Source: Halobacillus amylolyticus
Lineage (GTDB): Bacteria; Bacillota; Bacilli; Bacillales; Halobacillaceae
Direction of reading: 5' to 3'
Assembly: GCF_022921115.1 (NCBI RefSeq)
Contig: NZ_CP095075.1
Location: forward strand, 2,026,001 to 2,090,000
DNA length: 64,000 nt
The translations under genes were made by a program, and so were the position numbers. Positions within the stretch are counted from its first letter, which is position 1. Every line of letters begins with the position of its first letter. Below the pieces are notes generated by a model. The model searched no databases and was not told the DNA's origin. It was given only the letters and a program-made list of their open reading frames with translations. This document shows, in pieces, positions 12,064-48,441 of this stretch.

Positions 12064-12294
12064 ATGGGGAAATGTAATATCGATCATTCAATTGGAGATG
12101 TCGTGAACAAACTTGAGAGTCAGAAAGAATTTTTACCGAATCATTTAGCTGACGGGACACGTGTTTTTTTGCAAAGAGAACTTCCCCAGGAAACACTAAA
12201 TGATCTATTCCATCTTTTAAAAAAGTATGACCTTTCGTCTGAAAGTGAACAAAAGGAAAGAAATGAAGCGATCGAAAAAATGATAGCTAGTTAA
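12064..12294 (+). CDS. Small protein of unknown function, co-transcribed with esterase
   Basis: A 76-residue acidic/basic mixed soluble protein, mostly helical by appearance, without Cys pairs or a membrane segment (single Cys at residue 4). GGAAGGTGAT upstream supports ATG 12064. It starts five bases after the hydrolase stop. It resembles short group-specific proteins of Bacillaceae, but no family was recognised. Confidence 0.65.
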   Translation: MGKCNIDHSIGDVVNKLESQKEFLPNHLADGTRVFLQRELPQETLNDLFHLLKKYDLSSESEQKERNEAIEKMIAS

Positions 12295-12440
12295 CTAGGG
12301 ACTGAAGGGGCCTTGTTCCTCTGCTGTTAAGCGAAGGGAGAGGTCCCTCATTTTACTGCGGCCTCCATATTAGCACCCGGCCCAAATAGTTCTCTTCCAT
12401 TGAACCAAATCGCGGACGTCAAAACCTCCTTAATCAGTAA

Positions 12441-12530
12441 TTGCACATAATCTTGGATAATTGCACGAAATTTTGATTAATTGCACATAATTCCGATTAA
12501 TTGCACGAAATAGCCTTTTTTTGCACATTT
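12441..12530. repeat. 20-bp-period TTGCAC array A (five units)
   Basis: TTGCAC occurs at 12441, 12461, 12481, 12501 and 12521, exactly every 20 bases. The three bases after the core alternate ATA/GAA/ATA/GAA, ending ATT; the rest of each unit is AT-rich and variable, but the first three spacers end in (G)ATAA or GATTAA. It lies between the 3' ends of convergent transcription units. The same core and period recur at 47154. The 12295-12440 stretch holds a weak AGGGAC/GTCCCT dyad but no gene. Confidence 0.9.
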
Positions 12531-12564
12531 GACCCATCTTTATTTGAACCTCAATCTTACGTTA

Positions 12565-12890
12565 TTATGACGGAGGCTTAGATACCGGACTCTGATCATA
12601 AATAATTTGGTAACATTTGTTTATTTCTTCTCGTAGACTAACTGAAGCCCCTTCATCTAATGAGGTCAAACTTCAACAGATTATCCAATTTTTCTTCTAT
12701 CTTGCACGAAAATTTCAGCCAATCAAGCTGTACCATAACCCGGTGCTATAATCGCGAGATCAATATCAGAGTCTTCCTGATGATCTCCATAAGCTCTTGA
12801 ACCGAACAAAACGATCTTTTCTATTACTAGAAACTTTTCTGCAATAGTAATGATTTGTTTCGCTAGTTTTATAGGAATCAATCTATACAT
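12565..12890 (-). pseudogene. MNT-type nucleotidyltransferase (HEPN partner), decayed
   Basis: From ATG 12890 the minus strand encodes a minimal nucleotidyltransferase of the Pol-beta superfamily: MYRLIPIKLAKQIITI, then the catalytic motif FGSRAYGDHQEDSDIDLAII (Gly-Ser and two Asp). Reading stops early after about 55 codons. The rest of the family (WLKFSCKIEEKLDNLL, LREEINKCYQIIYD) continues in another frame, with at least two shifts before a stop at 12565. Such MNT proteins pair with HEPN proteins in two-gene systems, some acting as toxin-antitoxin modules. The partner remnant lies directly upstream at 12891-13229. Confidence 0.8.
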
Positions 12891-39545: not shown

Positions 39546-40485
39546 TTGGAAAAAAGAATGAAGACCACACAACACAAGCAACTGGCATCATTACTTGGGC
39601 GCCTACCCCTTGCTCACTCGAAACGCAGCGACGTCCAAGAACAGTATTCCATAAGGTCGGCCGGCCACTCTGGAGAAACGACCGCCGATCATTTCCTTCA
39701 ATACCTTCACTCAGAAGAATACCATGTTATCCAGGACATCCGCCTCTTCGACGGTATCCAACACTTTCAAATTGACTGCCTCGTCCTCACTCCTTTCTTC
39801 CTGCTCATCCTTGAAGTGAAAAATTTTCGAGGAAAACTTATCTTCGACTTCGAACACCACCAACTTTTCCGTATTTTTGAGGGCAAAAAAGAAACATTTC
39901 CAGATCCTTTTTTACAAGTAGAACACCAAAGTTATCAACTTAAAATGTGGCTAGACCAATTCAATTTCCCTGAGATTCCAACTCACTCATTTGTGGTGGT
40001 TACCAATCCCAAGACAGTCATCAAGACACATGGACCTGACCCAGAAGGACGAAAGAGGCGTATCATCCGCCCGAAACAATCCCCCTCGTCCGTGACAAGT
40101 CTAACATCCGTATTTAACAGGAAGTATTGGGATTTTCCACAAATAAAGACGGCAGCGAGTCGCTTTAAAAAAGAAAACCACGCCTCATCGCGGCCGTATT
40201 CTAGAAAAGTTTAATTTGACAACAGAGGATTTAGTAAAAGGTGTTCAATGTCAAATATGCAAAAAGTTCCCTATGGAGCGTAGGCGAGACCACTGGGTTT
40301 GCTGGTGGTGTGGGTTTAAATCGAAGAATGCTCACTTAGCGGCGTTGCGCGATTTCCAGCTTCTTGTGGGGGATGAGATCTCTAATGTGGAATTCCGGGA
40401 GTTCGCGAAAATCAAAACGGAATACATAGCGAGAAGAATTTTATTAGAAAATAGTCTAAGCTTTTCCGGACGCACGAAAGACTGA
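39546..40485 (+). pseudogene. NERD-domain protein, frameshifted
   Basis: The first frame encodes a NERD (nuclease-related) domain: FDGIQHFQIDCLVLTPFFLL, LEVKNFRGKLIFDFEHHQL and LDQFNFPEIPTHSFVVVTNP, with the E-V-K of the restriction-endonuclease-like core. The second frame (from about 40170) carries the C-terminal zinc ribbon FNLTTEDLVKGVQCQICKKF and HWVCWWCGFKSKNAHLAALR, with paired Cys. The junction follows the six-A run in CTTTAAAAAAGAA at about 40160. The two parts normally form one protein of about 310 residues. NERD proteins are linked to DNA processing, but the function of this type is not established. A degraded second copy lies at 16440-16862. Confidence 0.8.
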
Positions 40486-40505
40486 AAATATAAGCTGAAA
40501 CCTGA

Positions 40506-40620
40506 TATTTGAGAATCCAAGCTATTTATTTAAGAATCCTTCACATTATTTAAGAATCATTAGGCGTTATTTCAGATCACCTCAACTTATTTCGTAATCA
40601 TAGAAAGTTATTTCAGAATC
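40506..40620. repeat. TATTT-core array C (six units, 20-21-bp period)
   Basis: TATTT occurs at 40506, 40527, 40547, 40568, 40588 and 40609: spacing 21, 20, 21, 20, 21. Most units continue with (A/C)AGAATC or similar (TTTAAGAATC, TTTCAGAATC, TTTGAGAATC). The array lies between the convergent ends of the NERD and dgkB genes, just before the dgkB terminator. Confidence 0.85.
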
Positions 40621-40652
40621 CTCATCTGAACGCCTCACCCCAGCAAAAACCT

Positions 40653-47102: not shown

Positions 47103-47153
47103 CTAAGTAATTTCTACAGCATAGGCTATGGTTAGGAACATGAAGTTAGATAA

Positions 47154-47255
47154 TTGCGCGAAAAAGAGATTAATTGCACATAAAACCATCTTATTGCACA
47201 TTTGAAAGAATAATTGCACGAAACAGTCACTTTATTGCATATTTCCATTTTGCGA
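47154..47255. repeat. 20-bp-period TTGCAC array B (five units)
   Basis: TTGC(A/G)(C/T) occurs at 47154, 47174, 47194, 47214 and 47234, exactly every 20 bases: TTGCGCGAAA, TTGCACATAA, TTGCACATTT, TTGCACGAAA, TTGCATATTT. A degenerate sixth TTGCGAAA lies near 47250. The core and its GAAA/ATAA/ATTT variants match array A at 12441. It is sandwiched between two terminators after camS. Confidence 0.9.
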
Positions 47256-47295: not shown

Positions 47296-48441
47296 TTAAT
47301 CATAAATGTAGACAAAAGGCTCTTTCTTACCCGGTTCTTTCACAATCAAGCTTTCTTGTTGGTCCATACTGTTAATTCTCACTTGTATAGCGTAATGATC
47401 CTCGAACATTTCCATCACAAGACTATATACATACTGCGTGAATCCTACGACCTCAGATTGTGATCGGAATTGGATTGGAATATCAATTTTAACCCTTTTT
47501 AGTTCTTCATCAATATAAAATCCATTCGCAATCATCCCTACAAAATTTGGGAAGTAATCCGAGACCTGCACTCGAAAGTCAGAGAACAATTTCGAATCAT
47601 CGAAGTGATGCTCCTCTGCTTCGTCTGAAGGAAAGAGAACATAATCTTCATTTATTTCTTGCCAATCACTTACTTGGTTTTCAGAAGCCTCTACGTAGGT
47701 TTTGCTTAAAAAATTCCCTGGTGATTTCGCGTTATCTCGTTCCTCTTCGTAAATCGCAAAAACAATTGGTACTCCTTCCAGCTCTTTTTTGTTACGAAGA
47801 CGCTCTAAAATGATGGCTGCATATTCTTTTCCTTTTGCTAATAATTTATCAGTAGACAAGTTTTCTGTGTATTCCCGTCCATGAGCAGTAAAATTATATA
47901 CAGTTCTCATGGAAATTCCGATGGTGACCCCTGCCACTTCGACGACATTATCTTCTTTTCGAACTAGATAGTCTTGTTCGATAATGTTTGAGATATAGCG
48001 CGGGTTATTACGGAACTCTTTTTCTGAAGCCTCGTCTTCATTCAATTCAGGGTTCAGACCCTTAGGGTTATCCTCTGATTTGCGAGACAGCCAGTTCAAC
48101 AGCTCAGCATCTGTCAACGTCTGTCCAGGCTGAAAATAATAATCATCTGGACTGTAGTATTCTTTGGAATGACGGCGTAAGCCCTTCTCAAATGCTGCTA
48201 TGTCTAATCGATTATCCATTTGGTTTGTTGTTACACCAGGTGCTGCCGAAACCTTTGCACTATCTTCTGTCAAAATCATCCGATACGTATCATCAGATAA
48301 ACTATAGTTCGGTATAATGGCTGTTTGATTATTGCTATCGTCTTTTGTTTCTCGAACGACTTCATCCGTATTATCATAAACGGGTGTACACGCGCTTACA
48401 AGAAGCAAGCTACTAAGTAATAGTGCATGCAGCTTCTTCAT
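47296..48441 (-). CDS. camS: CamS-family sex-pheromone lipoprotein
   Basis: A 381-residue lipoprotein with a signal peptide and lipobox LLVSAC, giving lipidated Cys18. The mature part matches YerH/CamS (FEKGLRRHSKEYYSPDDYYF; GMIANGFYIDEEL). In staphylococci and enterococci the cleaved signal peptide of CamS-type proteins yields pheromone peptides sensed by plasmid donors; the role in Bacillaceae is unknown. The position next to ligA is as in B. subtilis. A long hairpin lies directly before its ribosome site (48456-48503). Confidence 0.93.
   Translation of the reverse strand: MKKLHALLLSSLLLVSACTPVYDNTDEVVRETKDDSNNQTAIIPNYSLSDDTYRMILTEDSAKVSAAPGVTTNQMDNRLDIAAFEKGLRRHSKEYYSPDDYYFQPGQTLTDAELLNWLSRKSEDNPKGLNPELNEDEASEKEFRNNPRYISNIIEQDYLVRKEDNVVEVAGVTIGISMRTVYNFTAHGREYTENLSTDKLLAKGKEYAAIILERLRNKKELEGVPIVFAIYEEERDNAKSPGNFLSKTYVEASENQVSDWQEINEDYVLFPSDEAEEHHFDDSKLFSDFRVQVSDYFPNFVGMIANGFYIDEELKRVKIDIPIQFRSQSEVVGFTQYVYSLVMEMFEDHYAIQVRINSMDQQESLIVKEPGKKEPFVYIYD

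Follow-up and report, generated by a model that had tools for sequence, protein, structure and literature searches.

The locus considered here raises the question of what a short core that returns every 20 bp, i.e., at close to two helical turns, is doing in an intergenic region of a bacterial chromosome. It lies in the 12441-12530 region of the window, by which the whole 64-kb stretch under analysis is meant, and the window belongs to the 4.30-Mb genome G000 (dnaA at C1:2713193-2714514).

Array A and its counterparts in the source chromosome

The five TTGCAC cores of array A were expected at a strict step of 20 bp and were confirmed at 12441, 12461, 12481, 12501 and 12521; among 6-mers recurring at one exact period between 10 and 60 bp, TTGCAC at period 20 is the sole one with five copies in the window. 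TTGCAC is present as predicted, but the conserved core is wider and reads TAATTGCAC, followed in the unit by GAAATT or ATAATT and approximately five variable bases. On the forward strand, the array thus consists of unit 1 (TAATTGCACATAATCTTGGA, 12438..12457), unit 2 (TAATTGCACGAAATTTTGAT, 12458..12477), unit 3 (TAATTGCACATAATTCCGAT, 12478..12497), unit 4 (TAATTGCACGAAATAGCCTT, 12498..12517) and an end-type unit 5 (TTTTTGCACATTT, 12518..12533). The alternation of ATAA and GAAA claimed for the bases after the core holds for the first four tails (ATAA, GAAA, ATAA, GAAA), whereas the fifth is ATTT. The flanking called ORFs are convergent, in line with the original prediction, yet both are short (76 and 55 aa) and have low coding scores (14 and 11): the left neighbor (12064..12294, forward strand) matches no Pfam family, and the right one (12723..12890, reverse strand) has a nucleotidyltransferase domain. 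A lone TTGCACGAAAA core is found at 12702, 181 bp past the last core of array A.

A second TTGCAC array of identical period had been placed at 47154. Array B (47151..47247, forward strand) has units at 47151 (start type), 47171, 47191, 47211 (21 bp long) and 47232 (TTGCATATTT, end type), with TTGCAC at 47174, 47194 and 47214, but its first core is TTGCGC, and the 20-bp steps give way to a last step of 21 bp, leading to TTGCAT at 47235. The CamS gene (47296..48441, reverse strand) points its 3' end toward array B, with a terminator-like hairpin in between, and the array has an orthologous array in a second species of the genus, G007.

Comparison of the spacing with shuffled sequence, as had been proposed, gave six matches of TTGCAC-N14-TTGCAC in the window (arrays A and B together) against a mean of 0.02 and a largest value of 1 in 100 dinucleotide shuffles. 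In G000 as a whole, the 20-bp pair has 42 matches, all on contig C1, and the reversed-core control has none; with a free gap of 0-30, 62 pairs are found (42 at 20 bp, 4 at 21 bp and 16 scattered) against 13 for the reversed control. A permuted core, CTCATG, gives at most two matches per genome in the 150 genomes searched below. The pattern is far above all of these, and chance or base composition as its source is ruled out by the shuffles and the reversed- and permuted-core controls. The 42 pairs group into 20 arrays, and two further arrays hold exact pairs at 21 bp only, giving at least 22 arrays of three to six units; the census needs two exact cores per array and arrays below that escape, so 22 is a lower bound.

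The window also contains a second array of unrelated sequence, with six units of ATATTT/TTATTTnnGAATC at 40505, 40526, 40546, 40567, 40587 and 40608 (40505..40628, forward strand), i.e., with steps of 21, 20, 21, 20 and 21 bp. It is flanked by a NERD gene and, on the other side, a convergent gene of diacylglycerol-kinase type, and lies ahead of a hairpin. By the pattern used, this family has three loci in G000 (L223, L225 and L227; six pair matches, reversed control 0), which have in common the first-unit type and a leader ending in ACCTG and vary in unit number. That a like geometry recurs on an unrelated core hints, more strongly than any other observation, at a role for the layout as such. 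NERD-domain-like genes adjoin arrays in three places (L060 5420-6650, window 39546-40214 and L104), namely twice in G000, once beside the TTATTTnnGAATC family, and once in G095, with weaker matches farther off in L097 and L047; this adjacency may be due to chance.

Relatives, unit order and turnover

Among G000 and 149 relatives, the 20-bp pair occurs in 39 of 150 genomes, in 24 of them as a single match. The highest counts are those of G131 (98), G115 (49), G000 (42) and G007 (27), and low counts are seen in G111 (6), G008 (4) and G126 (3), the latter having mainly 21-bp arrays (among 32 pairs listed, 19 at 21 bp and 3 at 20 bp). G131 has longer and more uniform arrays, with as many as 18 units. 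The 11 matches of G068 belong to a uniform repeat, TTGCACTT[TC]GGC..., and were set aside as a different thing. The reversed-core control itself matched G088 (15), G125 (7) and G095 (7): G088 and G125 have arrays of a related kind, built on the core AATC[CG]CACGTTA, and those of G095 read TTGCACGTT. Such related arrays, with other spacers or the CACGTT core, are distributed patchily across this bacterial order and have a 20-21 bp step. The arrays are hence both enriched and present in related genomes, where the original prediction had reserved chance or local slippage for a pattern that was neither.

A triple pattern searched across 84,980 species, each represented by one genome, yielded eight stretches, in Metabacillus arenae, Rossellomorea aquimaris (two strains), Bacillus sp. 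SJS, Alkalihalobacillus deserti and Terrilactibacillus tamarindi (mostly 21-bp steps), and in two metagenome bins labeled Methanoplasma and actinobacterium, the matches of which look like other repeats. In viral contigs, the triple pattern has no match, the double pattern two and the 21-bp triple pattern one, and, at an E threshold of 0.01, window 12380-12600 matches none of 72,556 plasmid records, which is a weak test with one AT-rich query. A plasmid or phage origin was rejected on the absence of matches in the plasmid records, weak as that test is, and of triple-pattern matches in the viral contigs.

Within the genus the distribution is patchy, with seven of ten other genomes having no 20-bp pair and one more a single pair. 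Beside pta (260 bp printed), arrays are present in G000, G007 and G008 and in none of the other eight genus genomes; the 470 bp before upp hold six units in G000, two in G007 and none in the other nine (the gene names glyA, upp, pta and lplJ were assigned by eye). The glyA-upp gap, which holds a TTGCAC array in G000, contains GTACCnGGTAC-like dyads every 27-28 bp in G009, G004 and G001 (L140, L142 and L145) and another short repeat, approximately CGAACTTCC, in G008 (L138; about every 27 bp, spacing by eye).

The units within an array follow an order. Spacers of the same rank match better across arrays than after shuffling of the unit order, with z values counted from start and end of 8.8 and 11.7 in G000, 7.5 and 6.5 in G007, and 6.2 and 9.8 in G115; in G088 the order is clear from the end only (2.6 and 8.1), and in G131 it is weaker (-0.1 and 4.0). 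This analysis left out L203, the flank of which resembles L200, and the G000 chains W1 and L067b include a spurious far first unit here as well as in the unit listing and the fold analysis. Arrays often end in TAATTGCATATTT, and in G000 GCATA is found in 14 of 22 last units and 5 of the 92 remaining units (in G007, 8 of 16 and 2 of 61, respectively), while the step pattern 21-21-21-20 occurs in five of the eight fetched G115 arrays. A unit order common to unlinked loci implies copying and rules out slippage alone, which had been proposed as an origin, although whole units are indeed gained and lost in a slippage-like manner.

Copying is expected of a parasitic or neutral interspersed repeat, a status that has been proposed for BOX, RUP and SPRITE in pneumococcus; such a repeat would spread in this way, sit where it is harmless, i.e., away from promoters, and change its unit number by slippage. 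The patchy presence and the other short repeats in the glyA-upp gap of G001, G004 and G009 fit this explanation, as do the comparisons with G007. Seven of 13 orthologous pairs from G000 and G007 differ by gaps of 20, 21, 40, 41 or approximately 80 bp, with flanks 87-94% identical (the comparison covers 13 of 22 arrays from G000 and excludes the non-orthologous pair L076/L079), and the counterpart of array A has one 20-bp unit fewer within the stretch of units 2-3. At L067 3930-4010, the array L067a is intact in G000, while its G007 counterpart, L217, is decayed and has no recognizable core, hence not every array is kept.

Copies fixed without function should, however, decay evenly, whereas the rate of change of TAATTGC between the two species is three to seven times below that of the far spacer. 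For this comparison, G007 regions were sought for all 22 G000 arrays without requiring the motif in G007, and at least two core-like hexamers were found in 19 of the 22, with none at L067a. When only units with at least 11 of 20 matching bases are kept, the species differ at 11 of 438 TAATTGC sites, compared with 81 of 437 sites at unit positions 14-20 (p = 6e-16; in this filtered test W2 is misplaced, L060a and L060b lie on the same G007 region, and for L060 and L069 a single flank served as anchor). Unfiltered, the 18 two-flank arrays, i.e., leaving out W2, both L060 arrays and L069, show differences at 37 of 454 TAATTGC sites and at 123 of 449 far-spacer sites (p = 2e-14), both rates being inflated by misaligned units left in, e.g., at L073, where two G007 units were seen elsewhere in the analysis. 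Flanks differ at 155 of 1228 sites (13 pairs; flank pieces more than 70% identical only), and all spacer positions taken together, with 79 of 564, are indistinguishable from them (p = 0.45), while TAA alone, which lies outside the search motif, differs at 5 of 141 (p = 7e-4 vs. flanks). Constraint is lower on the last C of the core, which differs in 12 of 63 cases. Gene conversion between arrays could mimic such core constraint. Since the alignment of flanks around the G000 and G007 arrays gave no conserved flanks or terminal repeats either, which also speaks against a mobile parasite, we consider a parasitic or neutral repeat a possible but rather doubtful explanation.

A transposon end or a recombination site at which a transposase or integrase binds repeatedly, like those of Tn7 or Mu, would likewise combine ordered sites of approximately 20 bp with a distinct end. 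Elements in G088 and G125 have a conserved TTTCGACA downstream of the array, the NERD gene at L060 comes with its own array and is missing from G007, which has a single two-unit array there (start and end unit only), and the arrays of L074 and L075 are inverted and approximately 10 kb apart. Tn7- and Mu-like elements have two inverted ends around their cargo and a target-site duplication. The closest pairs of arrays (L060, L067 and L100) are in direct orientation, and the neighbors at L074 and L075, like most neighbors, seem by eye to be ordinary chromosomal genes, so that a transposon end is very unlikely. A longer element type is seen in G088, in which a hairpin-like ATACCTCACnAGGTAT precedes the CACGTT array, which is followed by CCACGAGTCGACA...GGACAAATTTCGC...GATACCC; it is largely conserved in five aligned loci (L166, L168, L173, L174 and L176). 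At L072, an ORF that resembles an IS110-type transposase by eye lies 485 bp from an array.

Placement, RNA folding and chromosome position

In six genomes, 73 arrays were placed relative to genes: 22 from G000, 16 of 17 fetched regions from G007, 10 from 12 in G131, 8 from 8 in G115, 11 of 12 in G088 and 6 of 7 in G125. Arrays with fewer than three units or near a region end were dropped, the fetched sets are a subset of the G131, G115 and G007 matches, and the 73 arrays are not independent, those of G000 and G007 being partly the same by descent. None lies in a divergent region, while 23 are convergent and 50 co-directional, and no midpoint falls inside a called gene; genes were called by codon score rather than annotation, and a few overlap an array edge. 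In array-free gaps of at least 100 bp from the same loci (n = 231), 67 are divergent (29%), 27 convergent and 137 co-directional. This avoidance of divergent regions is also what harmless insertion of a parasitic repeat predicts.

Being located beyond gene 3' ends, the arrays could alternatively be RNA elements of 3' untranslated regions that serve message stability or termination. A terminator-like hairpin follows within approximately 20 bp to the right of 9 of 22 arrays in G000 and 6 of 17 in G007, and a small number of individual arrays are better folded than shuffled sequence (z of -3.8 in G000 and -6.5 in G131). The mean fold z is nevertheless near zero, from -0.8 to +0.8 on both strands in the six genomes (computed for 71 arrays out of 73, including 20 of 22 from G000), no Rfam family is matched at gathering score in five loci (L200, L173, L225, L189 and L100), and around array A there are chance-level Rfam matches only, none of them at gathering score. 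Both orientations to co-directional genes occur, the last unit lying toward the end of the upstream gene in 32 of 50 arrays and the other way in 18, and it is not apparent what a 20/21 spacing would mean in single-stranded RNA. We therefore regard an RNA element as improbable.

The original prediction had also proposed to examine the position of the arrays relative to terminators and the origin. Besides the hairpins near some arrays, arrays cluster around dnaA in two genomes: 18 of the 22 in G000 are no more than 0.68 Mb away (p = 3e-6) and 14 of the 17 in G007 no more than 0.71 Mb (p = 8e-6), with cut-offs that were set after looking, distances worked out by hand and many arrays in common between the two genomes. 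In G088, however, 6 of 12 arrays are in the dnaA-near half, i.e., without origin enrichment, hence no general chromosome-organizing role follows, and such an origin-proximal role was rejected. On G088:C1, seven of the 12 CACGTT arrays are found at distances of 0.99-1.15 Mb from dnaA, distributed over both arms, a pattern noted post hoc. The dnaA gene of G000 was matched in two overlapping pieces (open frames of 319 and 182 aa), which suggests a frameshift or an assembly error. A regulon of array neighbors was likewise rejected, as the neighboring genes, read by eye, are mixed.

A candidate protein-binding platform among known repeat systems

The arrays probably bind a putative protein. Array A would then be one of at least 22 ordered intergenic elements of three to six units of approximately 20 bp, built on the core TAATTGCAC and in most cases closed by an end unit of its own type, each serving as a double-stranded DNA platform on which a candidate host protein could assemble cooperatively, one per approximately two helical turns, into an ordered nucleoprotein patch outside gene 3' ends. 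Binding on duplex DNA is suggested by the near-constant two-turn step despite change in spacers and core, the slowly changing core, the lack of RNA structure on average and the unit-wise turnover. That the arrays lie past gene 3' ends and avoid divergent promoters favors an insulating, road-block or structural role over promoter regulation; the most likely effect would be local, as a road-block or insulator against transcription running into the neighboring gene, or as an anchor of nucleoid structure. The protein, its cooperative binding and its effect we infer from the arrays themselves, their order, placement, turnover, slower core change and relatives. As a whole, the reading of the arrays as cooperative binding platforms for a host protein, perhaps insulating gene 3' ends or organizing the nucleoid, has in our estimate an even chance of being correct.

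The data are consistent with the ordered protein binding that was proposed from the sequence of array A, and the accompanying claim that all cores face the same side of the helix holds approximately: 20 bp is slightly less than two turns and not an exact multiple of 10.5, steps of 20 and 21 bp are mixed, and G126 has mostly 21 bp. The binding reading is also opposed by the GTACCnGGTAC dyads of sister species, which at 27-28 bp do not fit two-turn phasing, by the patchiness of the arrays in the genus, by the decay of L067a in G007 and by the few single arrays that fold well. AA/TT phasing at 10 bp is high but was discounted as evidence, since a 20-bp tandem unit partly forces it. Extending the binding reading to the other cores is more tentative: a class of chromosomal nucleoprotein sites, described nowhere yet, might exist in this bacterial order, in which interchangeable cores (TAATTGCAC, AATC[CG]CACGTTA or TTATTTnnGAATC) are set at a step of roughly two turns past the 3' ends of genes, avoiding divergent promoters, each with a presumed protein of its own, and insulate transcription units. 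Among open-licence papers, none describing the TTGCAC array repeat was recognized.

CRISPR loci consist of repeats of approximately 23-47 bp and unique spacers of similar length. The arrays resemble them in repeat-spacer layout only, having a 20-bp unit, a 9-bp core and spacers with a common consensus, and no cas gene is seen by eye among the printed neighbors, in agreement with the original rejection of CRISPR. In the ParR-bound plasmid centromere parC of pSK41, tandem sites of approximately 20 bp are bound in order by an oligomerizing protein, and the parM/parR operon is adjacent. The arrays would be like parC in this working principle of tandem 20-bp sites, yet they are scattered at 22 chromosomal loci, and no partition gene is seen by eye among the printed neighbors. 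The BOX, RUP and SPRITE elements of pneumococcus, reported to be small interspersed repeats with extensive secondary structures (PMC3049150), are similarly small, interspersed and lineage-restricted, but the arrays do not on average exceed shuffles in folding, with few single exceptions.

The STAR elements of S. aureus are the closest described kind, although the arrays are not STAR elements. STAR elements are intergenic direct repeats of a short core and variable spacers, with 32-39 loci per S. aureus genome, one to seven motifs per locus, a start signature and a distinct last "anchor" spacer; whole units expand and contract, presence across species is patchy, and for interspersed intergenic repeats of low-GC Gram-positives such as these, neither function nor spreading mechanism was known as of 2012 (PMC3532100). 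The core-spacer build, the start and end parts, the interspersed intergenic location, the change of copy number per locus and the patchiness are thus common to both. The STAR core is GC-rich, T(G/A/T)TGTTG(G/T)GGCCC(C/A), with spacers of 40-44 bp at the locus described (PMC3532100), whereas the array core, aligned over the 22 G000 arrays, is TAATTGCAC and not a GC-rich TGTTGnGGCCC, the spacers are 11-12 bp at a 20/21-bp step rather than at least 40 bp, and the unit order is common to loci, in contrast to the spacers of STAR, which are distinct per locus. A binding protein, if real, would add a new layer of intergenic organization in these bacteria, and with their near-fixed two-turn step, ordered build, slowly changing core and orthologs in species that are approximately 90% identical, the arrays present a sharper case than STAR.
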